From Gordonia sp. UBA7599 (GTDB lineage: Bacteria; Actinomycetota; Actinomycetes; Mycobacteriales; Mycobacteriaceae), in contig DLKD01000043.1 of the NCBI GenBank assembly GCA_002477755.1, forward strand, positions 1-62,708: a DNA stretch of 62,708 bases, written 5' to 3'. Under the pieces are notes generated by a model. It saw only the letters and a list, made by a program, of their open reading frames with translations, had not been told where the DNA came from and made no database searches. Positions 19,586 to 45,715 of the stretch are shown here, piece by piece (the stretch's first letter is position 1; each line of letters starts with the position of its first letter). The position numbers and the translations under genes are program-made.

Positions 19586-20362
19586 ATGGCCAAGGGTGGC
19601 GAGACGAACAGCGGGTGTGTCGGGGTCTTCGGGATCCTGCTCGTCATCGGGCTGATCGCATCGATTCCCATGGAGGTGTGGATCGGCCTCAGCGGCTTGA
19701 TCGTCACCGGCGTACTGGTCTGGGCCGTCTTGAAGGCGTTGCCCGTGCTCGAAGCTAAGCGGGCTCGGCGCACCGCGGCGGCTGCGCAACGCCGACGTGA
19801 CGAAGAAGCCGCGCGCCAACGCCAGCGCGTCGTCGACCTCGGTGAGATGAACGTCGGTCGAATCGATTCGGCACTTGCGGCAGTACAACAGGTGGCCGAC
19901 TCACGGGCGGCGCGCGAAGGCTGGCTCGGCGACGTCGACTTCTCCGTCGACATCCAGGGGATCACCGACACGTACGCACGTGCGCAGCAGATGCGTCGGG
20001 TGACCTGGGAATTGCAGGCGCTGAGTAGTCCCACCGCTGACGACCGTCGCCTTCTCTCCGAGGCACATGCGACGGCGACGCAGCTGGAGGCCGCGGCGAC
20101 CGCACGTGTGGACTTGATCCTCCGGTGTGCGCTCGAAGCACAGTCGATCGACGAGTCCCTTCGACGCGAAGACGAACAGGCGCAGACCGCCGCTGCTCGG
20201 GAAGCGCTTCACCGGGAACTGAGCACCTTGCTGTACGGGGTCGGTGCGGCACCGTCTGCTGAGGCTGCGGATTCCGCGGCCGACCGGGTGATGGCGCGGG
20301 TCGCCGGCTACCGGGAGATCAAACAGCAGATCACCCTGGCACGTGGACTTCCTGTCGGTTGA
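19586..20362 (+). CDS. Membrane-anchored coiled-coil protein; 3' end altered by transposon insertion
   Basis: An unrecognised protein of about 258 residues with two adjacent hydrophobic segments (about 14-50) followed by a highly charged helical region rich in Arg, Glu and Ala (AKRARRTAAAAQRRRDEEAA and on), probably coiled coil. ATG at 19586 has an AGGGGA upstream. Its last codons run into the transposon: the reading is ...RGL-P then V-G-stop, where the final 10 bp belong to the left transposon end. Joining 20352 to 45716 removes the element and gives ...RGL-P-E-stop, so the original protein was probably one residue shorter at a slightly different C terminus. The insertion therefore spared almost the whole protein. 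Function unknown. Confidence 0.72.
   Translation: MAKGGETNSGCVGVFGILLVIGLIASIPMEVWIGLSGLIVTGVLVWAVLKALPVLEAKRARRTAAAAQRRRDEEAARQRQRVVDLGEMNVGRIDSALAAVQQVADSRAAREGWLGDVDFSVDIQGITDTYARAQQMRRVTWELQALSSPTADDRRLLSEAHATATQLEAAATARVDLILRCALEAQSIDESLRREDEQAQTAAAREALHRELSTLLYGVGAAPSAEAADSAADRVMARVAGYREIKQQITLARGLPVG
20348..20352. repeat. Target-site duplication, left copy (CTTCC)
   Basis: CTTCC immediately precedes the TGTCG terminus at 20353 and is repeated exactly after the opposite terminus (45711-45715). Five base pairs is the duplication length made by Tn7/Tn5053-type transposases. Confidence 0.9.
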
Positions 20363-20508
20363 CAGGATAATCGGGAGCAACGGCGCCCAATTGGGAGTCG
20401 GCGACCTGCAACAACGCTCCGCTTGCAAGCGTCGACGCTGACACCGAACTTTGGAGCGACTCAAATCGCCTCTGAGTTCCGGAAGCGGTGACAAGAGACT
20501 TGGGAGTC
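20353..20508 (+). repeat. Left transposon end with spaced TnsB-type binding repeats
   Basis: Three 20-bp repeats align without gaps: TGACAGGATAATCGGGAGCA (20360-20379), TGACACCGAACTTTGGAGCG (20439-20458) and TGACAAGAGACTTGGGAGTC (20489-20508). A partial fourth lacks the TGACA but keeps TTGGGAGTC (20391-20399). The (G/T)GGAG cores start at 20373, 20393, 20452 and 20502, so they are dispersed like the sites in the left end of Tn7. All point the same way, inward from the TGT terminus. Confidence 0.82.
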
Positions 20509-20562
20509 CGACACGCCAGGTCGGTCGTTGATCACGGCGATGGTTGAGGCATTGTTGCTGCC

Positions 20563-21426
20563 ATGCCTTTGAACATGACCGGAATCCTCGTTGTGATCGC
20601 TTCCCCTGGCGACACCGCTGACGAGCGAGCGGCAGTTCGCGATCAGATGAACGATTGGAACATCAACAACGGTCGCCGGCAGGGGATCGCGTTGCTTCCT
20701 TGGCTCTACGAGCGTAGCGCCGTACCGGCTCTGGGTTCGCGGCCCCAGAGCGTGATCAACTCCCAGGCCGTCGACAGAGCCGACGTAGTCGTGGCCTTCT
20801 TCGACAGTCGACTTGGAAGCTCGACAGGTGTCGATGTGTCGGGCACCGCAGAGGAGATCCGTCGCGCCCATTCCCTTGGGAAGCCGGTCCATGTCTACTT
20901 CTCGAACGAGCCGATTCCGCGCGATGCCGACCTTGAGCAGGCTGCAGCCCTCAGTGAGTTCCGGAGAGAACTCGAGGCAGAGGGACTTCTTGGCGACTAT
21001 GACGACCCTGCGGACCTGGCTGGTCAAGTGATACGCGCACTCGAGCATGACATCGATGAAGCTGGCTGGTCCGGCGTCGACGTTTCAGCTACTTCATCAG
21101 CCGGCGCAAGGCTGAAGTGGGAGCACGATCACCGAACCGAACAGCAGGGTCTCGACAAGAACGGCAAGATGAAGTACCGCACTTTGAGCAATCGTCTGGT
21201 CGTCACCAACTCAGGTGACCGCGCCGCGGAAGATCTAAGATTCAAAGTGACTGGTCTGGATGGCGCTCAGCTCCACTTCGACCCGCCGAGGGAGGCAGTC
21301 ACCATTGAGCCCGACTCGGTGCGCGATTGGGTAGCGATCCCCGTGAAGAGTGGATCGGTTCAGATCGACGCGGAATGGACTGAAGGGGGCGCCCCTCAGG
21401 AGCGTCGATGGACGATTCGTATCTAG
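20563..21426 (+). CDS. TIR-like/DUF4062-type protein, possible defence effector
   Basis: A 287-residue protein whose first about 165 residues match the TIR-like DUF4062-type fold: ILVVIASPGDTADERAAVRD, then PWLYERSAVPALGSRPQSVI, DVVVAFFDSRLGSSTG, SGTAEEIRRAH and GKPVHVYFS. TIR-fold enzymes often cleave NAD in bacterial antiphage systems; the Glu pair in SGTAEE is a candidate for the catalytic acid, which is inference. The C-terminal third (about 185-287) is beta-rich with alternating hydrophobics (RLVVTNSGDRAAEDLRFKV) and may be a sensor or structural module. The gene is transposon cargo between the left end and tniQ and converges with tniQ with 4 bp of overlap. An internal ATG at 20575 is an alternative start. 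Confidence 0.7.
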   Translation: MPLNMTGILVVIASPGDTADERAAVRDQMNDWNINNGRRQGIALLPWLYERSAVPALGSRPQSVINSQAVDRADVVVAFFDSRLGSSTGVDVSGTAEEIRRAHSLGKPVHVYFSNEPIPRDADLEQAAALSEFRRELEAEGLLGDYDDPADLAGQVIRALEHDIDEAGWSGVDVSATSSAGARLKWEHDHRTEQQGLDKNGKMKYRTLSNRLVVTNSGDRAAEDLRFKVTGLDGAQLHFDPPREAVTIEPDSVRDWVAIPVKSGSVQIDAEWTEGGAPQERRWTIRI

Positions 21427-22226
21427 GCCGCTCGCCGGCGATGTTGGTCCTCCAAGAACTTCGTCGCACCTTCGACCAAGAGCCAACTTTCTGGACCGGC
21501 CCACGCGAACCTGTGCGACAGGATCATCCGAGCTGAGCTGGAGTCGAAGTAGGCGTGTGTGACGGGCGGCGACGTCGCCAATTGCGCAATTGCTCTCGCG
21601 ACAGAAACGGACTCGGGAAAGAGCGCTATCTGACGTGCGGTCGAGTCTGCGGTCGAGTAGGTCGTGGATTGAGGCAGCTGAGGCGACCTATAGGTCTCGG
21701 CGGCAATTCCAGCGAAGTTTGAAACCAGTTCGACAGCAGTTGCCCACGCGACGTAGTCGATCGATCGGACGTGCACGAGTCGCCTTAGATGCCATTCGGC
21801 GCGTCGCAGCGTGGGTGTGAACTCGACTGATCGTTGTACATCGCCGAGCCAACGCTTGTGGCGTCTGCAGAAGTGGAATCGAATGTGCGGATACGTGACG
21901 ACCCTTGTGCCCGCCGTGCAAGCTGTGCAAGCGACGCGAGATGACTCTTGCCTGTCCCATGTGCCGCGTGTCGTGGCGTGCCCAAGTCTCGCGTGTGAGT
22001 GCGCCCGTTCAAAGACTATCGGCGATACACCGCTGAGCTCTTCGATCACGCTACCGAGTTCGGCTGCGCCGGTTCCACGCTGTTGCCGCCGGTGGCCGAC
22101 CATCTTCGTCATCCAGGCGGGGTCAATGGAGTTGGCTACACACACTCGTCTCAGATAAGAGTGCGGTGATTCCAGGTGTGCGAGTCTCACCGGTATGAGC
22201 TGCCTTGGGAGGTGGTCGTCGTTCAC
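21423..22226 (-). CDS. tniQ: TniQ-family transposition targeting protein
   Basis: From GTG 22226, 267 residues. The N-terminal part has the TniQ look (LPRQLIPVRLAHLESPHSYL, reminiscent of the P-x-ESxxS(Y/W)LxR motif). A zinc-binding pattern follows with C100-x2-C103 and C120-x2-H123 (FHFCRRHKRW), characteristic of TniQ/TnsD. TniQ proteins link the AAA+ regulator to the target. At this length it lacks most of the DNA-recognition extension of TnsD, so it resembles the shorter TniQ proteins. The GTG overlaps the tniB stop (GTGA), showing translational coupling. It is the last gene of the transposition operon, which points toward the left end. Confidence 0.85.
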   Translation of the reverse strand: MNDDHLPRQLIPVRLAHLESPHSYLRRVCVANSIDPAWMTKMVGHRRQQRGTGAAELGSVIEELSGVSPIVFERAHSHARLGHATTRGTWDRQESSRVACTACTAGTRVVTYPHIRFHFCRRHKRWLGDVQRSVEFTPTLRRAEWHLRRLVHVRSIDYVAWATAVELVSNFAGIAAETYRSPQLPQSTTYSTADSTARQIALFPESVSVARAIAQLATSPPVTHAYFDSSSARMILSHRFAWAGPESWLLVEGATKFLEDQHRRRAA

Positions 22227-23227
22227 GCCACTCCAATCTGGCTGAACCCGAGGAGCGTGTCCTGGGTGACGACCTCCTGACCGACTTCTTCGCGAAGCTC
22301 GATCGCTTCGGACATCGCCAGGGAAAGGACACTGCGTAGGTCGCCGATCTTGCCGTTGCTCATGCTGAGGAGCAGATCGGCGAAGGGAGCGAGGTGATTG
22401 TCCTCGCAGTCGAGGAGGTTCATCGCGCCGCCGAGAGATTCGATCAGAGCCGCCCATTGCCCTCGAAGTGTTTCGGTGCTGCCACTGAACGGACGCATGC
22501 CGATGACAGTGCAGCGCGCGATGATCTGTTCTGCGGCGCGGCTGGACAGTCCGGTTTGGAGGTCGACGCCAGCGAATACGCAGATTGCTCCGGAGTCGTT
22601 CATGATCGTCTTGAGTGAGTTGATCGCGTCGTCTCCGCTCTTGCCATCGAGTTTAAGCATCTGCAGTTCGTCGATGATCAGCATTCTGGTGCGATGACGA
22701 CGGAGAGCGTCGAGCGCGAGGTTGGTCAGCTGGTGCTGGGTGGCGCTTCGGAAGGCGTGCGGGATGCCGTAGAAGTTCAGGATCGAGCTGGCGATGGACT
22801 TTGGTGTCGCCTTCGGTTCCATCTCGATGTAGGCGACGGGTGCCTGGCCTTGTTGCTTGAACGCGGGGTCACGCTTGCCAACCCATTGCTCAGTCTTGGC
22901 TGCGAGATGGACGAGTGCCGTCGTCTTGCCAACGTGTGCGGGACCTGTCAGCACGATCCCGCGTTCGCCGACTGCAGCCGGGTTGTACCGCTGGAGCAGT
23001 GACATACCGACCCGGACGAGACTGCGAAGTTCGGGGGTCTGGACCATAAGCCCGTTGCTGAACCATTGCATGCGTTCGTCGTCGTAGGACGCCTGGGCCA
23101 CTTCGTCGAGCGCGTCGAATTCATTCCGGGTCAGCTGTGCTGGGCGCGGAACTTCCAACGCAAGTCGCTGGCGAAGGCCCTCGAGGGTCGTCTTGCGGCC
23201 GATAGAGCGGGGCAAAACATCATCCAT
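22223..23227 (-). CDS. tniB: TniB/TnsC-type AAA+ ATPase transposition regulator
   Basis: 334 residues with a Walker A sequence GPAHVGKTT (about 95-103), Walker B MLIIDELQML (about 182-191) and a later sensor region (GAICVFAGVDLQTGL). This is the TniB/TnsC ATPase that polymerises on target DNA and activates the transposase. The N-terminal about 60 residues are a helical segment that in TniB contacts the transposase. It lies 13 bp downstream of tniA. An ATG start is used. Both nucleotide motifs are intact. Confidence 0.9.
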   Translation of the reverse strand: MDDVLPRSIGRKTTLEGLRQRLALEVPRPAQLTRNEFDALDEVAQASYDDERMQWFSNGLMVQTPELRSLVRVGMSLLQRYNPAAVGERGIVLTGPAHVGKTTALVHLAAKTEQWVGKRDPAFKQQGQAPVAYIEMEPKATPKSIASSILNFYGIPHAFRSATQHQLTNLALDALRRHRTRMLIIDELQMLKLDGKSGDDAINSLKTIMNDSGAICVFAGVDLQTGLSSRAAEQIIARCTVIGMRPFSGSTETLRGQWAALIESLGGAMNLLDCEDNHLAPFADLLLSMSNGKIGDLRSVLSLAMSEAIELREEVGQEVVTQDTLLGFSQIGVA

Positions 23228-23240
23228 GGTTCACTCCTTC

Positions 23241-25277
23241 TCAAACGACCTTGTAGTCGTCTGGGTGATTTCGGATTGGCGAGACTGGGGCCAGGGGTGC
23301 TGGTTCGACTGCAGCGGGGCGGGGGAGTTCGTCACGCCTGCGGTTCGCTTTCTCAGTCGCAGCTTTGGTCCGCTTCCGGCTCGTGGACTTGGCCTCCTTT
23401 GGGGACTGTTTCCGCCGGTCGCGGTTCGTCGTCGAGGTGTGCCGCTTGGTGATCTTTTCGGCTTTGACGCGGCGTGTTTCCGAGTCGAGGAATGTCTGCG
23501 CCCATTCGGCATGTGGATCGTCGGCCGGCGCAGTTGCAGCGAGCCGCTGGGAGACCGTTGACCCAAATGGGAGCGCGGAGAGGCGGACACTGCGTGCAGT
23601 GCAGTCGATCCATACGTCGTTCTGCGGGTGTCGGACCCAGGCTCGGTCAGTGTCGTAGGGGTCTTGTCGAACTTCGACTTTCCCGCTGTGGGTTCGGATC
23701 TGGTCGAGTGCGGGCGAATCGTAGGTCTCGTTCTGAAGGTGAATGCCGTCAGAACGAAGTGTCCTTGAGAACGCCGGCATCAGACCGACGTAATCGGCTT
23801 CGGTGAGGGGAAGCGGGATGCCCGCACTGGCTTCGAATGCGGCCGCATACATCTGGTTCGGAGTGAACGTACGACCAGGGTGTTCACGTCGCACCAGGCC
23901 TCGGTGCGGGCGGTTCTGATACACCGAGATGACAAACTTCCACATCTGATCAACCAGTTCAGTGAAGGGGATCGGTACACGTGCGTTTCGCCCTCGGTGT
24001 TCGGGTGATCGGCCGACGTAGCTATCGAAACGAGCGAGAAGCTGGCTGTTCACACTGTTGAAGAAGCGTTCGACGTGAGGCTTGGCCGTCGGTGAGTGGG
24101 GAGGTGCATCGATGACGCTCCATCCGAGGACCTCGGCGGCGGCACGGCTCGCTAGGAAGTCCTTTCCTCGGTCCATCGTCAGGGTCTCGACCGCAATGAA
24201 CGGCATGGCGGGAGCGTCGGGGGTAGCTTGCCCCATCGCGATCATCGATTCGGAAGGAAGGGTCTTTGATCGACCGAGGGTCAACGACGGGTCCAGGCGG
24301 TCGACCGCACGGCGGGGACTGACAATGCGTGCGAACAGCACAGCGTGGTCGGTTGAGGATGGCGCTCCACCGTGGATATGGAATCCCACGACGCTTCCGC
24401 TGAACACGTCTACAGCGGCAGTCATGTAGGGGCGGATCACCTGTCCATCGGGCATAGCGGTCTCGACATCAAGCGTGTTGGAGTCGATTTCCACATACTG
24501 GCCGGGATACATAGCTTCGATTGGCCTGAAGGTCCGTTGGGGACGGTTTGATTCACTGCGCCGGTGTGCGGCGCTCTTCATGAGGCCGGCAGCGTCGAGC
24601 AGCGGATTGAGCCAGCGTCGTAGCGTCCGGTCGCTCGGCCATTCAATGATGTGATCGGAATGGTCATTGCGTACGCGTTGCTTGATCTTGTCGAGAAAGT
24701 ACTTGGTGTCTCGGCTTGTGGATCCGAGGTGCTCGGCGATTACCTGGTGCGCCGCTGTTTCCACTTCTTTCGGAACGCGCGGACCGGTGGAGTGCCGTGC
24801 CTTTCGACCATCGAGGAGACCCATCACCCCGTGTGCCCGGTATTCGGAGTCTTTCCGGAACAGGCTTGTACGCGAGGTCTTGATTCCCGCTGCGCGAAGC
24901 TCCTGCGCTTTGAGCTCCATGCGGCCCTCGATTGTGGTTCCGGCACCGTACCCGTCGCGGGGTACAGCGTCGGGATCGTCAGGATCCGCAACTCCAAACC
25001 TTGCCTCGTTGAGATGATTACGCCAGAACAGAACATCTTGATGGGTGTCCTGATCGAGCCGGGCGAGGTCGATCCGCTCTCGAACTTCCTGTGACGCGTC
25101 GCTCTTCTGGTGGTGCTCAAAGGACGCCTCGAGCGCGACGGTTGCCAAGTCAACCCACACAGGTGATCCTTCGACTACTGGATTCAGCCGAGTTCCCTGA
25201 ATGCCGTGGGCGTCGACGATCCAGTCGCGCCCATCCCATGTGACGATGTCCCCGAGGTTCACGCGCCGCAATCGCAT
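23241..25277 (-). CDS. tniA: TniA/TnsB-type DDE transposase
   Basis: A 678-residue Mu/Tn7-family transposase with an rve catalytic core. Catalytic residues, numbered from the ATG at 25277, are Asp about 265 (QYVEIDSNTL), Asp about 369 (LTMDRGKDF) and Glu about 403 (KPHVERFF). Helical DNA-binding domains precede them. A Mu-transposase C-terminal domain and a Lys/Arg-rich tail, probably the ATPase-interacting and DNA-binding end, follow. The ATG at 25277 has an AAAGGAG just upstream and overlaps the end of tnsA by 19 nt, so it is better than the in-frame start at 25298. It binds the end repeats and joins 3' ends to the target. The DDE triad is complete. Confidence 0.93.
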   Translation of the reverse strand: MRLRRVNLGDIVTWDGRDWIVDAHGIQGTRLNPVVEGSPVWVDLATVALEASFEHHQKSDASQEVRERIDLARLDQDTHQDVLFWRNHLNEARFGVADPDDPDAVPRDGYGAGTTIEGRMELKAQELRAAGIKTSRTSLFRKDSEYRAHGVMGLLDGRKARHSTGPRVPKEVETAAHQVIAEHLGSTSRDTKYFLDKIKQRVRNDHSDHIIEWPSDRTLRRWLNPLLDAAGLMKSAAHRRSESNRPQRTFRPIEAMYPGQYVEIDSNTLDVETAMPDGQVIRPYMTAAVDVFSGSVVGFHIHGGAPSSTDHAVLFARIVSPRRAVDRLDPSLTLGRSKTLPSESMIAMGQATPDAPAMPFIAVETLTMDRGKDFLASRAAAEVLGWSVIDAPPHSPTAKPHVERFFNSVNSQLLARFDSYVGRSPEHRGRNARVPIPFTELVDQMWKFVISVYQNRPHRGLVRREHPGRTFTPNQMYAAAFEASAGIPLPLTEADYVGLMPAFSRTLRSDGIHLQNETYDSPALDQIRTHSGKVEVRQDPYDTDRAWVRHPQNDVWIDCTARSVRLSALPFGSTVSQRLAATAPADDPHAEWAQTFLDSETRRVKAEKITKRHTSTTNRDRRKQSPKEAKSTSRKRTKAATEKANRRRDELPRPAAVEPAPLAPVSPIRNHPDDYKVV

Positions 25278-26035
25278 TGCGACTCCTTTCGTATCCATCG
25301 AAGGAATGTTTCAGTTGACAACGGCACATCCAGGTCCGCTGACAAGTGGTGATGCCAGATCAGGTGGCGCACGTGGGCGGCGGCGAGGTACGGATGCCGA
25401 AGGTTCACCATCGTCGCCCCGTCCTGAAAACAACGACCATCCACAAAAGCGTCTCGTAGGCGTTCAAGGTCATGTGGGGGCGGGTGATACTGGCGGTGCC
25501 GCGCCGCCCTGAGTAGCTGGAGGTTTCGGAGCTTCGCGACTGGAGTCTCGTTCAGAACTGCGTGTCTCCATCCAATCTGGCTGCACACGACGGCTGTCAG
25601 CTCAAACTGCTCATTCACCCCACCGGCCATCCGGTCTGCCGGCTTAACGTCGTAGACGATCTGGTCGCCGTTCTTGAGCTCCGCGAAGAAGTCCGGAATG
25701 TGCTTCCGTCCGTCACTGAACTCGATCAGCATGGGCTGCGCCGCAATTCTTGCGATCCGCCCTTCGAACTCGAGGGTGAGTAGGGCATCAGCCTCCAGGG
25801 CGGATTCGCACCAGACATGCGCCTTCTGCGTTGCCATGAAGTGACGCGAATGTCGATTCAGGCGATTCTGGTACTGGACGCCCTGTCGGTAGGGACGAGC
25901 GGCCGAGATCGCTTCTTCCAACAGCAGAGGAGAAGCACTCTCGGTACGCACCTGTCCGTCCTTAACGATCCAGGTCACCGTCGGAGCGATCCTCGCAGGA
26001 CGATCGGCGACAGACCTCTGATCTGCGCGTGTCAT
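25259..26035 (-). CDS. tnsA: TnsA-like endonuclease subunit of Tn7-type transposase
   Basis: 258 residues from ATG 26035, which has a strong GAGGAGGAG just upstream. The N-terminal half carries a restriction-enzyme-like nuclease core: Glu77 in WCESALEAD, Asp115 in KHIPDFFAEL and Lys131 in YDVKP, the E-D-xK pattern of TnsA. Together with a TnsB-type transposase it cuts the 5' strands, freeing the element completely (cut-and-paste). The C-terminal part is His-rich (HVRHLIWHHHLSADLDVPL), as in TnsA domains that meet TnsB and TnsC. First gene of the four-gene operon and therefore likely under the promoter in 26050-26270. Confidence 0.86.
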   Translation of the reverse strand: MTRADQRSVADRPARIAPTVTWIVKDGQVRTESASPLLLEEAISAARPYRQGVQYQNRLNRHSRHFMATQKAHVWCESALEADALLTLEFEGRIARIAAQPMLIEFSDGRKHIPDFFAELKNGDQIVYDVKPADRMAGGVNEQFELTAVVCSQIGWRHAVLNETPVAKLRNLQLLRAARHRQYHPPPHDLERLRDAFVDGRCFQDGATMVNLRHPYLAAAHVRHLIWHHHLSADLDVPLSTETFLRWIRKESQCDCGA

Positions 26036-26240
26036 TGCTCCTCCTCGCATGTCGCCACTGGTTAGTGATGTCCAACACTAGGAGTGGGGTACGACAAGTC
26101 CGGTCGTTCCAGGGCGCGAGCCCTCGTTCGCACGGCGCGCCTCTGTCCGAGGATCGGAAACTCAAAGATCTGGCAGCCGGCTGGCAACGAGCGCAGAGCG
26201 GAGCTTCTGGGGCGACTCGCCGAGATTTCAATAGGCTGGA

Positions 26241-26267: not shown

Positions 26268-26271
26268 ACGC

Positions 26272-26889
26272 ATGAGAAACATCCCAGACGTGCTGGTCGA
26301 CCGCATCGGCCCCCTCGTGGAGCCACTTCATGAAGCATTTGAGGCCGCGCGCTATCGCCTCGACACTGCGTTTCCGGGCCTCATCGGTCCCGATCAGGAT
26401 TGGCTTCGCACGCATACGTTGCGGGGGTTGCTGTATCAGGACCTCAATCGGACAGGTCTATCTGAGGGTTGGACGCTGGGAGGAGGTCACAACAAGAACG
26501 GTGCAGTGCACCTCGTCTACGGCAGTGCGGAGATCGCGGTTCGCGTTGTGCACAAGGTCTTCGGGGACACGCCGCCGGCAGGGAGCAATCGGCTTCGGCG
26601 GGCCTTCTACACAAACGCGGCAATCCGGGAACTGTCGGATGAGAAGGACCTACCTGTTCAGAACTTGTTGGCTACTTGGGCGGAGAACGGTGCTGATGAG
26701 CCGTTTGAGATCGATGTAGTGCGCCCAATCGAACCCGGAAGGGTCGGCAAGGGTGTTCGTGCAGACCTAGCATTCCCGCTGCCTCGGAACCGTACGGCCT
26801 TCGAGGACCTGGAGTTCGATACGCGCGACGAGGATGAGACTCTGAACTTCAGTTGGGACGACGAGGATCAGAAGGACGGCGATGGGTAG
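26272..26889 (+). CDS. Unknown protein paired with HTH-ImmA/IrrE gene
   Basis: 205 residues, no family recognised. The central part is the most structured (GWTLGGGHNKNGAVHLVYGS, then AEIAVRVVHKVFG). The tail is strongly acidic (FEDLEFDTRDEDETLNFSWD onward). No signal peptide or membrane segment is seen. It overlaps the following gene by 8 bp and shares its promoter, which is typical of toxin-antitoxin or two-part defence modules. It could be the toxin or the substrate of the peptidase. Transposon cargo. No Shine-Dalgarno is visible before the ATG. Confidence 0.6.
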   Translation: MRNIPDVLVDRIGPLVEPLHEAFEAARYRLDTAFPGLIGPDQDWLRTHTLRGLLYQDLNRTGLSEGWTLGGGHNKNGAVHLVYGSAEIAVRVVHKVFGDTPPAGSNRLRRAFYTNAAIRELSDEKDLPVQNLLATWAENGADEPFEIDVVRPIEPGRVGKGVRADLAFPLPRNRTAFEDLEFDTRDEDETLNFSWDDEDQKDGDG

Positions 26890-35536: not shown

Positions 35537-35557
35537 CAGAGACCTTTCTTTCGTTTC

Positions 35558-35571
35558 TGATGAAATCATCA
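35558..35571. promoter_or_regulatory. Operator-like inverted repeat TGATGA-AA-TCATCA
   Basis: Perfect 6-bp arms with a 2-bp spacer, 22 bp upstream of the MCP hydrolase start and upstream of the divergent cocE-like gene. The nearly identical TGATGA-TT-TCATCG stands in the promoter of the second catabolic operon (39912-39925). Shared site in two promoters supports a common regulator, probably one of the two paralogous TetR proteins. Confidence 0.65.
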
Positions 35572-35696
35572 ACTACTTACCCTACGGAGTCAACCAGCCG
35601 GCACCAGACGGTGCGATCGCCACGCACAGGCGGCACGCGAAGCCACCAACACAGGAGGTAGTCGTCGGCTCGACCAAACTCAACAAGGGGGTCACA

Positions 35697-37664: not shown

Positions 37665-37675
37665 GCCCGCGAACT

Positions 37676-37711: not shown

Positions 37712-37763
37712 ATTTGCAGCATCAACGGCGGGGAAGTGGTTGACCACCGAGTCGAGACAACGG

Positions 37764-38453
37764 ATGATCTGCGAGAATGCACAGGTGTCCACCGAATCCG
37801 ACCAACGCAGCACACGAATCGACCCCCGACGAGCGCGCACCCGCGCCGCACTTGTTGCCGCTGGACGAAGGCTCCTGGCTGAGCACAGAACCTCAGCGAG
37901 CATCCAAGAGATCACAGACGCGGCAGGGGTCGGGTTCGGCAGCTTCTACAACCATTTCGAGAGCAAGGACGAGCTGTTCGATGAAGCCGTCGCCAGCGCG
38001 CTCGATGCCTGGGGTGCACTACGTGACGTAGTGGTGGCCGGGATTGACGATCCGGCTGAAGTGTTTGCCACCAGCTTCCGCATGATCGGACGCGTGCAGC
38101 GTCACGTACCAGAGTTCGTCAAGACGATCCTCAACCGAGGAATGTCAGTGCTCCTGACAGACCGCGGCCTACGCCCACGTGCGCTTGCCGACCTCGAGCG
38201 AGGAATCCAGACCGGACGTTTCACGGTCCCATCTGCAGAGGCAGGACTCATGATGTCCGGTGGGGTTCTCCTCGGGCTGGTTCAACAGCTCGACAGCAAC
38301 CCGGACCTCGACGCAGAATCGGTCTCAGACTTTTATGCCGAACATGTCCTTCTGATGCTCGGCGTCGACGCCACTGAAGCATCTCGACTAGTCGAGTTGC
38401 GCCTGCCGGAGATATCGGTCGCAGATTGGGCAGTACCGGGGACCGAGAACTGA
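37764..38453 (+). CDS. TetR-family regulator 1 of the catabolic island
   Basis: About 229 residues. HTH at the N terminus: ARTRAALVAAGRRLL, then SIQEITDAAGVGFGSFYNHF. The C-terminal sensing half includes GLRPRALADLERGIQTGRFT. It is clearly paralogous to the TetR at 39172-39810 across its length. Start is uncertain: ATG 37764 is used, TTG 37740 is possible, and GTG 37785 would give a length closer to the paralogue. It follows the secreted hydrolase gene after a hairpin and is a candidate repressor of the catabolic promoters. Ligand unknown, probably a pathway intermediate. Confidence 0.85.
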   Translation: MICENAQVSTESDQRSTRIDPRRARTRAALVAAGRRLLAEHRTSASIQEITDAAGVGFGSFYNHFESKDELFDEAVASALDAWGALRDVVVAGIDDPAEVFATSFRMIGRVQRHVPEFVKTILNRGMSVLLTDRGLRPRALADLERGIQTGRFTVPSAEAGLMMSGGVLLGLVQQLDSNPDLDAESVSDFYAEHVLLMLGVDATEASRLVELRLPEISVADWAVPGTEN

Positions 38454-38462
38454 TCCGATTCG

Positions 38463-38690: not shown

Positions 38691-38736
38691 ACCCAGGGCG
38701 CACTTCCACCCACTGAATCCTATCTCGACCGGGTCA

Positions 38737-38946: not shown

Positions 38947-38949
38947 CTA

Positions 38950-39171
38950 AATCTCGCCCAGGCGGGCAGGATCTGTTTTGGGTTGGCCGGATTCTGGATG
39001 TACTTTTCTCCGCGGTCGTCAATTGCGGAAAGCTCAGTTGACCTTGCGGCACGTAGGCGAGCCGATCAAGGTGAGCGCTACACCGGCGACGCCCGCCAGG
39101 CCGGACCCGATGGAGAGGTGCCGAGGGGGGTAGGCGGCTACAACCGCGACAACGCGAGTCGGATTCCGACG
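38950..39171. other. Gap with no intact gene, possible gene debris
   Basis: Part of the 718-bp stretch between the two TetR genes. On the minus strand, codons down to a stop at 39034-39036 spell a hydrophobic IGSGLAGVAGVALTLIGSP, possibly the end of a lost transporter. I see no Shine-Dalgarno, start or complete reading frame here. Confidence 0.4.
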
Positions 39172-39810
39172 TCAGAGCTTGAGGGTGACCTCGGGCAGAT
39201 CGCGATTGCAGATGTCGTGCGCTTCAGCGGCGTCCACGCCGAGCACAATCAACGCACGTTCCGCAAAGAGGTCGGCAGTCGGGCCGGCTGGCACATCTCG
39301 AGACTCCAGCATTTGCAGGAGAGCGAGGAGTAGACCTCCGACCATCATCACGCCTGCTTCGGGATCGGGCACCGTGAACCGACCAGAAGCGATTCCGCGC
39401 TCGATGTCTTCAACTGCACCTGGCCGCAGGCCGCGGTCTGTCACGAGGACCTGGGCGCCCGCGTTCAGGACCAACTGAGCCATCGTCGGATTCGACTGCT
39501 GAAGACGGCCGGCCAGCCGGAAGCTGCGGGCGAAGATCTCGGCCGGGTCGGTAAGACCGGCGGTTGCCTGCTGCCGAAGTGCGGACCATCCATCCAGCGT
39601 CTCTGCTATCGCGGCAGCGAAGAGCTCCTCCTTGGTTGAGAAGTGGTTGTAAAAGGTCCCGAAGCCGACGTCTGCGAGGTCGGTGATGTCTTGGATGCTC
39701 GCGTTCGTACGTCCGCTCGACAGCAAGTCGGTCGCGGCCGACACCAAAGCAGCGCGCGTGCGCGCTTTCCGTCGATCGGCGCGGCTGGACGGTTCTGCCT
39801 TCGCAGTCAT
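39172..39810 (-). CDS. TetR-family regulator 2 of the catabolic island
   Basis: 212 residues with an N-terminal HTH (ARTRAALVSAATDLL, then SIQDITDLADVGFGTFYNHF) and a C-terminal domain that aligns with TetR regulator 1 (TDRGLRPGAVEDIERGIASGRF versus the matching TDRGLRPRALADLERGIQTGRF). The two are products of a duplication. It is divergent from the second catabolic operon, whose promoter holds two copies of a TGATGA inverted repeat. The natural reading is a repressor of that operon and possibly of the first one. A GAGAGG precedes its ATG. Confidence 0.87.
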   Translation of the reverse strand: MTAKAEPSSRADRRKARTRAALVSAATDLLSSGRTNASIQDITDLADVGFGTFYNHFSTKEELFAAAIAETLDGWSALRQQATAGLTDPAEIFARSFRLAGRLQQSNPTMAQLVLNAGAQVLVTDRGLRPGAVEDIERGIASGRFTVPDPEAGVMMVGGLLLALLQMLESRDVPAGPTADLFAERALIVLGVDAAEAHDICNRDLPEVTLKL

Positions 39811-39911
39811 CGATGCCTCTCTCGAATCTCAATCAGAACTGATGATACGTGCCACCTGCTGGTCGAGTGCACTCTCGGGGAGCGCGCGGTTTTCGGGAAG
39901 CCCTTGCAAAG

Positions 39912-39943
39912 TGATGATTTCATCGGTAATGATGATCATATCA
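39912..39943. promoter_or_regulatory. Two operator-like repeats before the second catabolic operon
   Basis: TGATGA-TT-TCATCG at 39912-39925 and a weaker TGATGA-TC-ATATCA at 39930-39943, starts 18 bp apart, lie between TetR regulator 2 (start 39810) and the dioxygenase gene (start 39971). The first matches the perfect repeat at 35558-35571 apart from one arm base and the spacer. Confidence 0.62.
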
Positions 39944-39970
39944 GTCAGACATCAGTCGGAGGAGGCAACG

Positions 39971-41116
39971 GTGACTGCGGAAGCCCAGGCGCGCGACCCA
40001 CACAGCGACATACATAGCGAGGAGGGTGCTCTGCGTGGGGAGCACGCCGGACGAAGTGCCAATCCGCTGGTCAAGGTGCGTGGCTTGGCGTGGCTTGAGT
40101 TCGCCAAGCCCGACTTGGTCCGCGCTGAAGCCTTTGCGAGGGCTTTCGGCTTTGAGACCGCCTGTCGCACCACAGACACGCTGTACCTGAGGGGGGCAGA
40201 TGCTGGCTCACCCTGCGTTGTGATCCGCAAGGGCAGGCGAACGCGCTTTCTTGGACCTGCATTCCAGGCTGCCGACGGCGCCGATGTGGTCAAGGTCGCG
40301 AACAGCATGGGCGTACGCGCCACGCCCATTGGCGAACCCCTGGGTGGCGTCGGAGTCTCGGTGCTCGACCCCAGCGGAATGCCTCTACGTGTCGTCGCAG
40401 ACGTCGACCAGTTGCCGGCGATCGGAGCTCCTGCCGAGCCTGTCTTCAATTTCGGTTCCAATCGCCCTCGGACGAACACCCCGGTCCGGCCACCTCGAAC
40501 ACCTGCCCGGGTCCAGAGGCTCGGCCACGTCGTATTGATGACCAGCCGCTACCGCGAGTCGCTCCAGTGGTACCTCGACACCCTCGGGTTGATCGTCAGC
40601 GACTTTCTCTTCTACGAAGGCCAACGTGATCGAGGACCAGTGATGAGCTTCATCCGGTGCGATCGCGGCAGCGAACCGGCTGATCATCACACCCTCGCAA
40701 TGACGCTCGGCCCATCCAACAAGTACGTCCATTCCGCCTACGAAGTCTCCGACTTGGACACCATTGCTGCAGGCGGCGAATACCTCAACGACCTGGGCTA
40801 CCACCGATCATGGGGAATCGGCCGGCACATCCAGGGAAGTCAGATCTTCGACTATTGGCGCGATCCCGACGGCTTTCTCGTCGAGCACTACGCCGATGGC
40901 GACCTATTCGACTCTTCTCTCGAACCAGGGTGGGCGCCGATGACCGCCTCTGGCCTTGCCCAATGGGGACCACCAGCGACGCCTGACTTCCTCGGGACGA
41001 CGCTGGGCCGTGAAGCGCTGGAAACACTGCGCGACAGCGTCACTTCGCTTCACAACCGCGACAACGAATTCGATCTCCGCCGACTGCGCGGCCTACTGAA
41101 AGTACCGACATCATGA
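39971..41116 (+). CDS. VOC-family extradiol-type dioxygenase
   Basis: 381 residues from GTG 39971, preceded by GGAGG. Two VOC modules: the first (about 35-145) degenerate, the second (about 175-330) holding the metal triad, a His in RLGHVVLMTS, a His in KYVHSAYEVSD and a Glu in GFLVEHYADGD. The N-terminal about 35 residues and the C-terminal about 50 are additional. The family cleaves catechol-like rings. It is the first gene of a four-gene plus-strand operon with 4-nt overlaps. Pairing with an FAH-type enzyme suggests the product is hydrolysed by a different chemistry from the first operon's alpha/beta-hydrolase. Confidence 0.82.
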   Translation: MTAEAQARDPHSDIHSEEGALRGEHAGRSANPLVKVRGLAWLEFAKPDLVRAEAFARAFGFETACRTTDTLYLRGADAGSPCVVIRKGRRTRFLGPAFQAADGADVVKVANSMGVRATPIGEPLGGVGVSVLDPSGMPLRVVADVDQLPAIGAPAEPVFNFGSNRPRTNTPVRPPRTPARVQRLGHVVLMTSRYRESLQWYLDTLGLIVSDFLFYEGQRDRGPVMSFIRCDRGSEPADHHTLAMTLGPSNKYVHSAYEVSDLDTIAAGGEYLNDLGYHRSWGIGRHIQGSQIFDYWRDPDGFLVEHYADGDLFDSSLEPGWAPMTASGLAQWGPPATPDFLGTTLGREALETLRDSVTSLHNRDNEFDLRRLRGLLKVPTS

Positions 41117-42060
41117 GCATTGCCGTCCTCCGCACCGTCGACTCCTGGTGGGTCCGCCTCGACGAACACCGAGCCCGCAAGATTGGCACCACGGCCCAAA
41201 CGACCACAGACCTCCTCGCGGACCGTACGGCTATCGAAGCCGCCCTTGACAGTGATGGGGCAACGGCCGAGGTCGAAGAACTCTCCCTGGTGTCACCGGT
41301 CACCACGCCCTGCCGGGTCGTCGCCCAGATGACCAATTACGCGACCCACGTACGAGACTCTGGAATGGATCCCGCCACCGTTCCACTCACGTTCTTCCGC
41401 AAAGCGTCAGGGTCGATCACCGGGCCACAGGACGAAGTCATCAAGCCCGCCCACGTCGGCCTGCTCGACTACGAAGTCGAAATCGGACTGGTGATCGGTG
41501 AAACGATCCCTCTAGGGACTAGCTTCGGCCAGGGTCCCGGGCTGCCATCACAAGTCGCTGCGCTGGTGATCACGAACGATGTCTCTGCGCGCGACGTACA
41601 GCTACCGAAGACGCAATTCTACGAAGCTAAGTCCTATCCCACGTTCACGCCGGTAGGTCCGGTTCTTCTCATTCTCGAAGACGGCGACGGCGAGCGATTC
41701 GTCGATCTTCGCCTTCAGCTCCATGTCAACGGCGAAGTACGTCAGGACAGCACGGTCGCCGACATGATCTACCGCCCTCACGAGGCCTTGGCGTGTCTCA
41801 CCCGATTCCAGCACCTCGACGTCGGCGATCTCGTCCTGACCGGTACACCGGGAGGTACCGCCCTCAAAGCTCCCGCAAAGCCGCTCGAGATTATCGGCAA
41901 TCTGATGCCGCCGGCGTTGAAGTGGAAGACCTTCTTCAAACGGCAGGCGTCAAATCCGAAGTACCTCCATAACGGTGACATCATCGAAGCGTCGATCGGC
42001 ACCGCCGACAAGGTCCTGGACCTGGGTGTCCAGCGCAATCCGGTGAGGTACGCGAAATGA
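41113..42060 (+). CDS. Fumarylacetoacetate hydrolase (FAH) family protein
   Basis: 315 residues. The FAH catalytic fold appears from about residue 75: TNYATHVRDSG, LTFFRKASGSITGP, then the metal ligands in LLDYEVEIGLVIGE (two Glu) and a following VITNDVSARDVQ (Asp). The late GDLVLTGTPGGTALKAP is a family hallmark. Members cleave C-C bonds of ring-opened products, decarboxylate or isomerise them. The ATG overlaps the dioxygenase stop by 4 nt. Probably acts on the dioxygenase product; exact reaction undetermined. Confidence 0.87.
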   Translation: MSIAVLRTVDSWWVRLDEHRARKIGTTAQTTTDLLADRTAIEAALDSDGATAEVEELSLVSPVTTPCRVVAQMTNYATHVRDSGMDPATVPLTFFRKASGSITGPQDEVIKPAHVGLLDYEVEIGLVIGETIPLGTSFGQGPGLPSQVAALVITNDVSARDVQLPKTQFYEAKSYPTFTPVGPVLLILEDGDGERFVDLRLQLHVNGEVRQDSTVADMIYRPHEALACLTRFQHLDVGDLVLTGTPGGTALKAPAKPLEIIGNLMPPALKWKTFFKRQASNPKYLHNGDIIEASIGTADKVLDLGVQRNPVRYAK

Positions 42061-43997
42061 CCACGGCCGATTCCAGCGGCCTCCTCTGGCCGACATACGA
42101 GAAGCCCGCCGACCTACCTTTGATCGAAGCGGTGCCGCTGGAGGAGCGAGGAGTGCCGAGCACGACCTACGACCTTCTCGAGCGTGCAGCTCAGACCTGG
42201 CCCGATCGACCGGCCATCACTTCCATTCCTGACGCGGCGCGCTGGCGGGACGGGGTGACCCGCACATTCGCCGAAGTGCATGCTGATGTCGTCGCGGCGG
42301 CGAACCTGCTACACCACCTCGGTATCCGACGCGGAGATCCTGTCACCATTCTGGCCCCCAACTGCGATGAACTGATCACCTCAATTCTGGCCGCACAGTT
42401 GGCCGGAATCGCTGCTCCCGTCAATCCAAGCCTGGCCGCCGATCATGTCATCGACCTGATGGCCAGAAGTGGATCCCGCACCGTTATCGCCGCAAGTGCC
42501 GACCTGAGTCCCGACACATACGGCCTTGTTGAATCCCTCGCTCGCGCCGGAGTCCTCGACAACGTTCTGCTGCTCATGCCGACTGGGGAGCAACCTGGCC
42601 TCGACGTCCCTGAGATGGCAGGGGTCAATGTCGACTTTCTTGCGAGCGCGTCTGTAGCTCACCGGGCGCCTGCATTTGTCGGCGCTGTCCCGTCCGCCGG
42701 CGACTTGGCCGCGTTGTTCCACACCGGCGGTACTACAGGACTCCCGAAACTCGCGGCCCATACCCATCGCAACGAAGTGGCCGACGCATGGTCCTTGGCG
42801 GCCAACTCTGTTCTCGACGAAGATTCAGTTCTCTTCGCGGCGCTTCCCCTGTTTCATGTGAACGCCCTTATCGTCACTCTCCTGACGCCGTTGTTCCGCG
42901 GCCAGTCCGCGATCTGGGCTGGACCGGCCGGATACCGGGACTTCACGCTGTATGCCGAAATCTGGAACATCGTCGAGCACTACAGAATCTCAACGATGAG
43001 CGCAGTTCCCACCGTGTATGCAGTGCTTGCCAACTGCCCGGTCAACGCAGACATCTCGTCGATGAAGTTCGCGATGGTCGGCGCGTCGGCCCTGCCGTCC
43101 GGTGTCCGGACTGCATTTGAGGGTGCCACCGGTATCCGCCTCATCGAGGGATACGGGCTAACCGAAGCAGCGTGTGCCACCGCCCGTGGGTTCCTCAAAG
43201 ACCACCAGGACGACGCGTTGGGGCAACGCATGCCCTATCAAGGCGTCAAGGCCGTGCGCGTGAACGCTGACGGCAGCTGGGATGACTTACCATCTGGCGA
43301 TGTCGGTGTACTTGCAATCGGTGGCCCCACCGTCTTCCCCGGGTACGTGATGGGTCGGGACTCCTCGGGCGTCCTCCAACTCGATGGACTCGGCAAGCTC
43401 CACCAAGGCTGGCTAGACACCGGCGACCTGGGCTCAGTCGACGAGAACGGTTGGATCAGGTTGGTCGGACGAGTGAAGGATCTCATTATCCGGGGCGGTC
43501 ACAATATCGACCCTGCCGTCATCGAAGACGTGCTCACTAGCCACCCGTCTGTGACGGGGGCAAGTGCCGTTGGTCGACCCGACCGACATGCAGGAGAAGT
43601 GCCAGTAGCCTATGTGACTCTCTCCGCAGACACCGATCCTTCGATCAGCACGGACGACCTGATCGACTTTGCCCGGTCTCAGCTCGCCGAATCGGCTGCC
43701 GTACCCAAGGACGTACTCGTGATCGACGCCCTCCCGGTCACCGATGTCGGAAAGCCGAACAAGCTGCCGTTGCGGGCCGATGCTGCGCGCCGGGAGGCCA
43801 CCAGTGCTCTCGCCGGCATCGTCGGCGTCGAAGACATCAGTGCCTCGACCGTCGATGGGGCAGTGCGAGTAACCGTGCACCTGGCGCAAAACGCACCCTC
43901 GACAGTCACCGAAGACCTTGACTCGATCCTCAATCGATACGCTCTCGACTGGGAGCTCGACGAGCCGAACGGAAACGTATCCGGTAACCCGTCATGA
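42057..43997 (+). CDS. AMP-forming acyl-CoA ligase
   Basis: 646 residues. The phosphate loop reads FHTGGTTGLPKLAAHTH, the A5 region is EGYGLTEAACATARG, the A7 region is TGDLGSVDENGWIRLVGR and the following VKDLIIRGGHNIDPAVIE is A8. A lysine near GKPNKLPLRAD is in the A10 position. The last about 80 residues (after the adenylation C-domain) are extra and unassigned. It probably activates an aromatic or alkanoic side-chain acid as a CoA thioester. The ATG overlaps the FAH gene stop by 4 nt. The upstream MhpA-like operon has no such ligase, so side-chain processing may be split between operons. Confidence 0.88.
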   Translation: MTTADSSGLLWPTYEKPADLPLIEAVPLEERGVPSTTYDLLERAAQTWPDRPAITSIPDAARWRDGVTRTFAEVHADVVAAANLLHHLGIRRGDPVTILAPNCDELITSILAAQLAGIAAPVNPSLAADHVIDLMARSGSRTVIAASADLSPDTYGLVESLARAGVLDNVLLLMPTGEQPGLDVPEMAGVNVDFLASASVAHRAPAFVGAVPSAGDLAALFHTGGTTGLPKLAAHTHRNEVADAWSLAANSVLDEDSVLFAALPLFHVNALIVTLLTPLFRGQSAIWAGPAGYRDFTLYAEIWNIVEHYRISTMSAVPTVYAVLANCPVNADISSMKFAMVGASALPSGVRTAFEGATGIRLIEGYGLTEAACATARGFLKDHQDDALGQRMPYQGVKAVRVNADGSWDDLPSGDVGVLAIGGPTVFPGYVMGRDSSGVLQLDGLGKLHQGWLDTGDLGSVDENGWIRLVGRVKDLIIRGGHNIDPAVIEDVLTSHPSVTGASAVGRPDRHAGEVPVAYVTLSADTDPSISTDDLIDFARSQLAESAAVPKDVLVIDALPVTDVGKPNKLPLRADAARREATSALAGIVGVEDISASTVDGAVRVTVHLAQNAPSTVTEDLDSILNRYALDWELDEPNGNVSGNPS

Positions 43998-45493
43998 CCG
44001 CTTCACCGTCAACTCCAGTGGTCATCGTCGGGGGAGGGCCGACCGGAATCACAGCGGCAATCCTCCTGGCCCTTCAAGGAGTACCCAGTCTGGTCATCGA
44101 ACGGTGGGAGGACATCTACCCGCAACCTCGAGCAGTCCATCTAGACGACGAGGTCTATCGAATCCTCGGAAAGCTCGGCGTAGCGGACGAGTTCGCAGCC
44201 ATCTCACGCCCGGCACTAGGCCTTCAAATCATTGACTCCGATCATCAGGTTCTCGCTCGATTCCAACGCGATCCGAACAATGAGCCCAACGGCTACCCAC
44301 AAGCCAATCTGTTCGACCAACCCGATCTCGAACGAATCCTCCGGAACCGACTCGCCGAGCTTCCACTGGCCACCCTCCGGTCTGGCGCCGAAGTGATCAG
44401 TCTGACTCGACAACCCGACACCGATGAGATCACCGTCGACGTCCGCGACATGAGTACCGGTGCTGTCGACCAGATCAACACCTGTTTCGTGCTCGGCTGC
44501 GATGGAGCGAACAGCCTAGTACGGACCGCTATTGGTTCGACGATGGAGGACCTGCACTTCGAACAACACTGGCTGGTCATCGACGTCGACACAGAGGCTG
44601 AACTCGAGCAATGGGGAGGAGTCCACCAACTCTCCGACAAGCGCGCCGGCACGTACATGCGAATCGGCCCGACACGACACCGCTGGGAGTTCCAGCTCCT
44701 CCCGGGCGAGGACGCCACAGACTTCGAAAACCTCGACCAGTTACTGCCGCTCATCAAACCGTGGACCGGGTCGGTAGACGGCAGCCAACTCAACATCGTC
44801 AGGTGCGCCGGGTACACATTCCGGGCACAGATAGCCGACAGCTGGCGGAGCGGCGGAGTCTTCCTGCTCGGCGATGCCGCTCATCTAACCCCTCCGTTCA
44901 TCGGACAAGGAATGGGCGCCGGCCTCCGCGACGCATACAACCTGGCATGGAAACTCAGTGCCGTTCTACACGGCTGCCGCAGGCCAGAAGAGGTCCTCGA
45001 CTCCTATCAAGCCGAACGCCGCCCACATGCATTGGCCCTGATCCGTAACGCTGTCTTGATCGGGTTCGCCATGACGGGTGGCGGCATCGCCGGACAGCTA
45101 TTCCGCGCTGCCGCGTTGCCCCGCGTATCGCGGATGCCAGGATTAGGACGAGCTGCGACGACAAGCGAGACACCGCGACTGCACAAGTCCGAGCTCATCT
45201 CGCGCCGACGTCATCCACGGGCGCTCGAAGGCCGCCTATGCCCAAACGCGCGAATTGATCAACAGTTACGGGTAGACGACGTAGGCACGTTGTATGCAGT
45301 CATTACAGTTGACGACCTCGAACCAGATGACCTTCAATACTGGACAGCCTTTCCAGCCAGAATAGTTCGCGTTGACATCGATTCAACGTTGGGACGCTGG
45401 CTCAAGAGAGGACGAAGTCGAGCTGCCCTGATTCGCCCCGACAGTATCGTCCGCACTACGGCAGAGAACGCGGCCCAACTCAGGCCATCGTGA
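43994..45493 (+). CDS. FAD-dependent aromatic monooxygenase 2
   Basis: 499 residues. FAD motif VVIVGGGPTGITAAILLALQ, then VLGCDGANSLVRTAIG and VFLLGDAAHLTPPFIGQGMG. It is related to, but clearly distinct from, the monooxygenase at 31934-33649 and about 70 residues shorter at the C terminus. Class A hydroxylases add a ring hydroxyl using NAD(P)H and O2. Last gene of the operon, ATG overlapping the ligase stop by 4 nt. After its stop, the transposon's right end follows within about 150 bp. Confidence 0.87.
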   Translation: MTASPSTPVVIVGGGPTGITAAILLALQGVPSLVIERWEDIYPQPRAVHLDDEVYRILGKLGVADEFAAISRPALGLQIIDSDHQVLARFQRDPNNEPNGYPQANLFDQPDLERILRNRLAELPLATLRSGAEVISLTRQPDTDEITVDVRDMSTGAVDQINTCFVLGCDGANSLVRTAIGSTMEDLHFEQHWLVIDVDTEAELEQWGGVHQLSDKRAGTYMRIGPTRHRWEFQLLPGEDATDFENLDQLLPLIKPWTGSVDGSQLNIVRCAGYTFRAQIADSWRSGGVFLLGDAAHLTPPFIGQGMGAGLRDAYNLAWKLSAVLHGCRRPEEVLDSYQAERRPHALALIRNAVLIGFAMTGGGIAGQLFRAAALPRVSRMPGLGRAATTSETPRLHKSELISRRRHPRALEGRLCPNARIDQQLRVDDVGTLYAVITVDDLEPDDLQYWTAFPARIVRVDIDSTLGRWLKRGRSRAALIRPDSIVRTTAENAAQLRPS

Positions 45494-45644
45494 CCTGCTG
45501 CACCAAATCTCGTTCCTGGTTCGCGGGGCACTGTTCAAAGCACTTCAACGTGGGGGAGCGATCGTCGGCCTCCGCCACGACCGAAGTGACCGAGGATCGC
45601 AGCGCCGCTGCGGCCGCGGTTCAGCCTGCCGACGCCACAGTGTT

Positions 45645-45710
45645 CCTCCCACGTAGCTGTCAAGACCTCCCATATATCCGTCGCTACTCCCACCTTTCGT
45701 GCAATCGACA
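45645..45710 (-). repeat. Right transposon end with tightly packed TnsB-type repeats
   Basis: Reading from the terminus inward (minus strand): TGTCGATTGCACGAAAGG...GGGAG, then two more TGGGAG cores. On the plus strand the CTCCCA words start at 45687, 45667 and 45646, 20-21 bp apart, and the innermost is followed by CTGTCA. The close phasing is like the right end of Tn7, whereas the other end (20353-20508) is dispersed. The terminal TGTCG(G/A)TTG matches the left terminus. The 151 bp between the last cargo gene and the innermost repeat hold nothing I recognise. Confidence 0.82.
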
Positions 45711-45715
45711 CTTCC
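45711..45715. repeat. Target-site duplication, right copy (CTTCC)
   Basis: Exact repeat of 20348-20352, directly after the ACA terminus. The next bases, GGAGTAG, complete the host gene as P-E-stop when joined to the left copy. Confidence 0.9.

Follow-up and report, generated by a model that had tools for sequence, protein, structure and literature searches.

A TnsA-containing Tn7-like transposon with an aromatic degradation island beside a predicted dif site in Gordonia

The DNA analysed here (the window) is the 62,708-base stretch of contig DLKD01000043.1 from Gordonia sp. UBA7599, whose assembly comprises 3,796,811 bases in 173 contigs and is 93.9% complete. It contains a 25.4-kb Tn7-like element (20353-45710) next to a predicted chromosomal dif (XerCD) site. 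Very probably this is an intact-looking TnsA-TnsB-TniB-TniQ transposon that carries a RosmerTA-like pair and an aromatic island, was inserted beside dif and comes from an actinobacterial dif-targeting lineage. A preliminary description, made from the sequence alone, recognised the transposon and missed its putative dif target, which is the element's main interest. The features that define the element and its surroundings are as follows.

19571-20362, + strand: gene of an uncharacterised family of the dif region, without Pfam match, interrupted at its last codons
20348-20352: left copy of the target-site duplication CTTCC (direct reading)
20353-20520, + strand: left end (tniQ side), TGTCGGTTG terminus and four TnsB-type repeats (+20, +40, +99, +149)
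21423-22226, - strand: tniQ, in the target selector position; Pfam TniQ E 0.029, below cut-off; CxxC...CxxH invariant in a 4-row alignment
22223-23227, - strand: tniB/TnsC-like AAA+ ATPase; Walker A GPAHVGKTT; Pfam TniB 57.2 bits against a cut-off of 22.4
23241-25298, - strand: tnsB/tniA DDE transposase with Mu-transpos_C domain; D272, D376 and E410 invariant in a 3-row alignment
25259-26050, - strand: tnsA endonuclease; NF033179 149 bits against a cut-off of 110; E82/E86, D120 and K136 invariant in a 4-row alignment
45644-45710, - strand: right end (tnsA side, towards dif), TGTCGATTG terminus and three repeats (+19, +39, +60)
45711-45715: right copy of the target-site duplication CTTCC (direct reading)
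45765-45792, + strand: predicted chromosomal dif site ACTTAACATAATGTATCTTATCGGCACT, 54 bases beyond the right end, XerD arm towards the element

The element has the TGT...ACA ends, arrays of about 20-bp repeats and 5-bp duplication of Tn7-like transposons. Its terminal bases, TGTCG at 20353 and CGACA ending at 45710, and the exact CTTCC duplication had already been described, and direct reading and an array scan bore them out together with the TnsB-type repeats claimed for both ends. The duplication was dropped as sufficient proof of an element, as 14 TGTCG...CGACA pairs with matching 5-bp flanks lie more than 3 kb apart in the window, 13 of them chance pairs and one the element's own; for two independently placed termini, a 5-bp match has a chance of about 1 in 1000 (4 to the power 5). 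The array scan, which looked for TGT, then [CT][GT]GGAG 15-25 bases in and a second core 17-24 bases further, matched the window at 20353(+) and 45710(-) only, against a background density of 0.07 per 100 bases per strand for the three commonest repeat cores over the whole window. Because the repeat arrays, and not the duplication, single out both termini, the boundaries are taken as settled. GC content is 61.1% in the element and 66.5% and 66.4% in the flanks.

With the element removed in silico, the interrupted gene, which now ends in RGLPVG, would end in RGLPE; this restored end, GYREIKQQITLARGLPE followed by the stop, is similar to the ends of six homologues. The predicted empty site is GGACTTCC joined to GGAGTAGACG. 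These data also bear on the idea that the two ends belong to different elements and share CTTCC by chance. In its favour, the catabolic cargo separates tnsA from the right end here, while in the branch A relatives described below the dif-side end is about 0.9-1.5 kb from tnsA. The sole two arrays in 62.7 kb nevertheless share CTTCC, the scan of the window gave no third array or internal end, and the interrupted gene regains a normal reading once the insert is removed, all of which makes a composite of two elements very unlikely. Positions 20353-45710 are thus confirmed as one intact-looking TnsA-containing Tn7-like transposon, delimited to the base. The family of the interrupted gene (19571-20352) occurs in 10 of 59 genomes of the genus, its own included, and at four homologue loci (among L045-L048) the homologue lies about 3-9 kb from dif.

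As first proposed, tnsA, tnsB/tniA, tniB and tniQ lie within the termini together with all the catabolic cargo. We take the conserved E, D and K residues of TnsA to be catalytic. TniQ proteins of the element and three relatives match the Pfam family with E 0.0019-0.23, all four below cut-off, and the CxxC and CxxH of the element's tniQ product are kept in the three relatives; an AlphaFold model had a pLDDT of 49.8, too low for use. A second, distant TnsA/TnsB locus in the same genome (G000:C5:15349-19641, L002) is not on the dif contig and has a TnsB 26% identical; loci with the same score are present in several further Gordonia genomes (L013, L014, L016-L018).

The site beyond the right end is assigned to dif by motif, copy number and family resemblance. 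A 20-base dif core, with up to two mismatches allowed, was found once in 50 of the 59 genus genomes, twice in one (the second dif-like site is in G051) and not in eight, and the reversed core, used as a control, gave no match in the 59. The window's site is the sole match in its genome. Its other-strand reading agrees with the dif suggested for Frankia alni, as quoted in the available part of PMC3025954, at 18 of 22 arm positions (counted by eye). The source genome encodes XerD (above cut-off) and a second Xer-like protein. A position beside dif would also suit an IMEX-like element integrated into dif by the host XerCD. IMEX elements have dif duplicated at both ends and no target-site duplication; the window element has a 5-bp duplication, TnsB-type ends and all of tnsAB-tniBQ, and its genome has one intact dif match, which lies on just one side of the element. 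We regard such an origin as extremely unlikely.

Dif regions of up to about 1.5 kb on each side, several shortened by contig ends, were compared for relatives of the element (51 regions, 50 fetched plus the window; 50 were analysed, G024 being excluded as its dif lies outside the strict pattern). Arrays of the window element's end type were called type A, and those with a TGGCGA core, as in G036, type B. A strict scan placed type A on the XerD-arm side of dif at 54 bases in the window, 52 in G055 and 43 in G022, and later inspection added G050 (60), G032 (53) and G017 (47), which the strict pattern had missed. With an end 38 bases from the dif of plasmid p174 of Gordonia polyisoprenivorans VH2, type A is present in six genomes and one Gordonia plasmid, 38-60 bp from dif. 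Type B lies on the XerC-arm side in G036 (48), G026 (36), G001 (37), G054 (37), G032 (28) and G017 (28 or 35, depending on the choice of TGT), making six genomes to which Arthrobacter ISL-5 (43) is added, all 28-48 bp from dif. At least one such end adjoins dif in 10 of the 50 genomes, and reversed end motifs were absent near dif in all 50 regions. In G017 and G032 both types flank dif, one per side. The sequence given with the comparison of dif-adjoining ends is INDEPENDENCE.

The tnsA-side end points towards dif in all six cases in which both were mapped (window, G022, G050, VH2, G036 and ISL-5), and the window element differs from the other five in having cargo between tnsA and that end. 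The ISL-5 element, 43 bases from dif, is a complete one of 5051 bp. Target-site duplications differ among elements: CTTCC flanks the window element and GTCAG the ISL-5 element at either end, and the flanks read at one end alone in G022, VH2 and G050 are different again. Compared by eye, the stretches that separate the ends from dif show no relation between loci. Second ends were sought through the duplication: for G022 (GACTC) none was found in 80 kb, for VH2 there was one unlikely place inside coding sequence, and for G036 there was none. The tnsB gene is broken in G050, as it is in Gordonia effusa NBRC 100432. In G055 (G055:C45:6187-6477; L186, L204), dif is adjoined by a facing pair of end motifs separated by 278 bases, and on the side towards dif the terminal 13 bases are repeated in tandem; no TnsA/TnsB match was found in this genome, and the structure is perhaps a mini-element at dif.

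Anatomy, duplication, proximity, side and spacing were thus read directly from the DNA in both Gordonia and Arthrobacter. These features could alternatively mean that nothing is targeted and that the dif region just tolerates insertions, so that elements accumulate there. The neighbourhood of dif is indeed variable from one Gordonia genome to another, G034 and G009 have cargo-like operons near it for which no transposon ends were detected, and a few end motifs lie 0.8-5.6 kb away. Mere tolerance would not be expected to give a window of 28-60 bases, a fixed orientation and a fixed side of dif for each lineage, or a dif-side insertion on a plasmid, and we consider it unlikely.

The nearest named full-length TnsB, at 67.5% identity, is that of VH2 plasmid p174. 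A TnsB tree was built from 61 rows, reduced to 44 by removal of rows shorter than 470 aa, of L131, L134 and L141 (by hand) and of identical rows. The window TnsB groups with those of VH2, G022 and G036 and with two Arthrobacter proteins, six in all with support 100/99, and dif lies beside the element in five of the five testable members of this clade. The sixth, Arthrobacter sp. SO3, is on a contig bounded exactly by transposon termini. This 5057-base contig (L154) starts at the TGT and stops at the ACA of a complete mini-element, which may be present in several copies and so have interrupted the assembly. Dif-like arms occur upstream of tnsB, within a reach of 0.8-2.3 kb, at 8 of the 61 TnsB loci, a count in which neither the window, with dif at the opposite end of the element, nor the G032 fragment figures; five of the eight are branch A or B relatives and the others, the J3.49 plasmid, M. 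kyorinense and G211, are leads only. Dif targeting by the whole TnsA family was dropped on this count.

A single-sequence TnsB scan of genome contigs found nothing and an alignment-based scan found seven loci; a search of plasmids with the element's DNA returned five records, the best place covering 2% of the query. A genome-wide search of the 59 genomes for the end motif, with up to two mismatches, gave 42 places in 22 genomes and three control matches, and also caught sequences ending in TGAGAC, apparently of another family. Since the looser matches include these, conclusions rest on the ten perfect motifs. Nine are in genomes with a dif match, and of these eight lie within 6 kb of dif, four of them within about 100 bases. 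The test is weak, because the motif came from ends at dif. Facing end-motif pairs 255-257 bases apart occur at G029:C1:3746081-3746337, G055:C16:76566-76822 and G010:C2:34246-34500 and look like non-autonomous mini-elements.

Taken together, the element appears to belong to a small actinobacterial lineage with the tnsA-side end 28-60 bases from dif, branch A on the XerD-arm side and branch B on the XerC-arm side. From these comparisons we infer that proximity to dif reflects target choice and that the element may be mobile at present. Dif hunting by a Tn7-like lineage, much as Tn5053 hunts res sites, is the best reading. TniQ and TniB, probably the sensing proteins, would recognise dif, or XerC/XerD bound on it, and TnsA and TnsB would then place a cut-and-paste insertion just beside dif and leave the site intact. 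Nearly every host chromosome has a dif site, and an insertion beside it would spare essential genes.

Several points weigh against this interpretation. No transposition has been observed, there is no same-species empty site for comparison, the TniQ match is below the Pfam cut-off, and dif was recognised by sequence criteria rather than by assay. On the 44-protein TnsB tree the dif label needs five changes, and 12 of 500 shuffles are as low; it is therefore not a single-origin trait of the wider TnsB family, and more distant TnsA/TnsB families lie away from dif in the same genomes. Spacing is variable, so there is no strict ruler. Perfect end motifs on the XerC side at 0.8 kb (G041) and 5.6 kb (G029) would, if true ends, break the side rule; another lies 1.8 kb from dif on the XerD side (G040), one in G055 is on another contig, and in G026 the XerC side of dif has an array of type A pattern at 1094 bp. 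The type B ends of G017, G001, G054 and G032 are alike, with no clade transposase beside them, and may represent one inherited insertion.

What is sensed at dif could be the DNA or the complex on it. In Tn7, TnsD binds its attachment site in glmS, and TniQ, the expected target selector, might bind the dif arms directly with XerCD playing no part; by eye, no other sequence is common to ends and dif at the loci compared. Branch A spacing, though, varies by more than 20 bases and the branches lie on opposite sides, which fits a nucleoprotein target better without being decisive, and we lean slightly away from direct binding. Our judgement is evenly balanced on the fuller proposal that the XerC/XerD complex on dif serves as attachment target, that sister lineages read it from opposite arms so that one dif can host both (compare the two end types around dif in G017 and G032), and that the dif neighbourhood, at the replication terminus, would be a hotspot where large cargo for catabolism and defence is loaded.

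Tn7-like elements are studied for safe-site choice by a TnsD/TniQ-type selector, which can be directed to genes, tRNAs or CRISPR guides. Tn7 has in common with the window element a tnsA-side end towards the target and a cut-and-paste gene set; its TnsD-glmS target lies at fixed spacing, and its TnsE pathway broadly favours replication termini. Members of the Tn5053/Tn402 family, reportedly termed 'res site hunters' by Minakhina et al. in 1999, use TniA-TniB-TniQ to insert beside a site-specific recombination site (res), lack TnsA, and transpose replicatively with a resolvase. The window element has TnsA, and a Pfam scan confined to its main, larger open reading frames found no resolvase family.

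According to the accessible part of PMC10132070, ISAjo2-group insertion sequences of the IS1202 family are 'dif site hunters' which, like the window element, have a TnsB-related transposase, TGT/ACA ends, a 5-bp target-site duplication and orientation-specific insertion beside dif or pdif. They are described there as 1.5-kb, single-gene elements 5 bp from the XerC site, without TnsA, TniB, TniQ or cargo, whereas the window element has 25.4 kb and four core genes and lies 54 bp from the XerD arm. The actinobacterial clade 2 of Tn7-like transposons resembles the window element in host phylum, core genes, end arrays of about 20 bp and mixed cargo with toxin-antitoxin and defence-type genes; in contrast to the present case, the available text of that study mentions neither a dif or XerC target nor a full ring-cleavage pathway (Benler et al. 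2021, PMC8649781). Tn7706 of Rhodococcus erythropolis, from the portion of PMC12915292 available, is also a tnsA-tnsB-tniB-tniQ Tn7-like element of the Mycobacteriales. The TnsB of its copy on plasmid pRhX5 (L067) is about 32% identical to the window's; no dif was found upstream of tnsB there, and by annotation the downstream genes encode universal stress proteins, phosphatases, fluoride efflux, enolase and an integrase.

No dif-hunting TnsABC-TniQ transposon was found in the open literature searched, literature beyond it not being covered. Neither 'dif' nor 'XerC' appears as a whole word in a survey of Tn7 target selectors (PMC10293859) or a review of CRISPR-associated transposons (PMC11406308), and 'heteromeric transposase' with 'dif' led, in the text accessible, just to work on E. 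coli Rpn (YhgA-like) proteins. If a TnsABC-TniQ element is dif-directed, its target would be a portable one, since nearly all circular chromosomes and many plasmids have dif, and transposition would be linked to chromosome segregation. The accumulation of adaptive cargo near dif in some Gordonia genomes could be a result of such targeting, and the natural 5-kb mini-element would make the question raised by the res hunters, whether DNA or bound recombinase is sensed, testable.

The cargo consists of the following genes.

20563-21426, + strand: protein with DUF4062-like N-terminal domain, candidate defence; below Pfam cut-off, resembles the N-terminal part of PADLOC PDC-S60
26272-26889, + strand: RmrT-like toxin of a RosmerTA-type pair; PADLOC RmrT E 1.7e-37
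26882-28015, + strand: RmrA-like antitoxin, helix-turn-helix and ImmA/IrrE peptidase; PADLOC RmrA E 3.9e-104
28067-29164, - strand: amidohydrolase, operon 1 (Pfam)
29186-30205, - strand: 4-hydroxy-2-oxovalerate aldolase, operon 1; TIGR03217 above cut-off
30202-31134, - strand: acetylating acetaldehyde dehydrogenase, operon 1; TIGR03215 above cut-off
31131-31937, - strand: 2-keto-4-pentenoate hydratase-like, operon 1; below equivalog cut-offs
31934-33649, - strand: MhpA-subfamily flavin adenine dinucleotide (FAD) aromatic hydroxylase, operon 1; NF004829 455.5 against a cut-off of 390
33646-34761, - strand: BphC/HsaC-like extradiol ring-cleavage dioxygenase, operon 1; below equivalog cut-offs
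34667-35572, - strand: HsaD/BphD-like C-C bond hydrolase, operon 1; below equivalog cut-offs
35454-37664, + strand: CocE/NonD family hydrolase; open reading frame start probably upstream of the true one
37740-38453, + strand: TetR-family regulator
39683-41116, + strand: second extradiol-type dioxygenase, operon 2
41113-42060, + strand: fumarylacetoacetate-hydrolase-family protein, operon 2
42057-43997, + strand: acyl-CoA ligase, operon 2; not found in the homologous operon of G034
43994-45493, + strand: second MhpA-subfamily FAD hydroxylase, operon 2; NF004829 559.4 against a cut-off of 390

The RmrT/RmrA-like pair adjoins tnsA and is called RosmerTA-like on what we take the PADLOC labels to mean. 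Operon 1 reads from 35572 to 28067, C-C hydrolase first and amidohydrolase last, and presumably encodes a full meta-cleavage route to pyruvate and acetyl-CoA, as predicted from gene families; its substrate is left unassigned because the hydroxylase, dioxygenase, hydrolase and hydratase miss equivalog cut-offs. Operon 2 spans 39683-45493. Two catabolic operons with their regulators had been announced as cargo; the operons stand, while instead of several regulators there is a single pathway-type one (TetR, 37740-38453). A full ring-cleavage pathway had been called unusual for a TnsA-containing element; metabolic cargo on Tn7-like elements is uncommon yet was already known: the available part of Benler et al. 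2021 (PMC8649781) reports central-carbon and sugar-catabolism genes, with 'few complete pathways'. A complete meta-cleavage pathway on such an element would offer a concrete route for the spread of pollutant degradation.

G034 has homologues of the operon 1 enzymes (70-90%) and of operon 2 (71-81%, without the ligase) on different contigs, so the element unites modules that are separate there. As a sign of a related transposon, operon 1 of G034 was dropped: it lies 11 kb from dif, but the 40 kb retrieved contain no type A array, and neither type of array is present within 1.5 kb of dif. Homologues of the operon 1 dioxygenase (E below 1e-80) occur in 11 of the 59 genomes, its own included, and lie about 13 kb from dif in G034, 5 kb in G032 and 29 kb in G009; at least three of ten this near dif has p of about 2e-4 under a uniform model with the distance chosen post hoc. 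Among these three genomes a transposon end was detected near the homologue solely in G032, where the far boundary was not found. On the Arthrobacter plasmid pJ349-116 (L068, 18853-41527), a tnsA-tnsB-tniB set has a dif-like site immediately upstream of its tnsA and degradation genes of phthalate/protocatechuate type as neighbours. At 5 of 14 plasmid loci (L161, L164, L170, L173 and L174) a more distant TnsA-type element starts beside a MobF/relaxase, ParA or recombinase-family gene, which would fit other branches having segregation or transfer loci of their own as targets.

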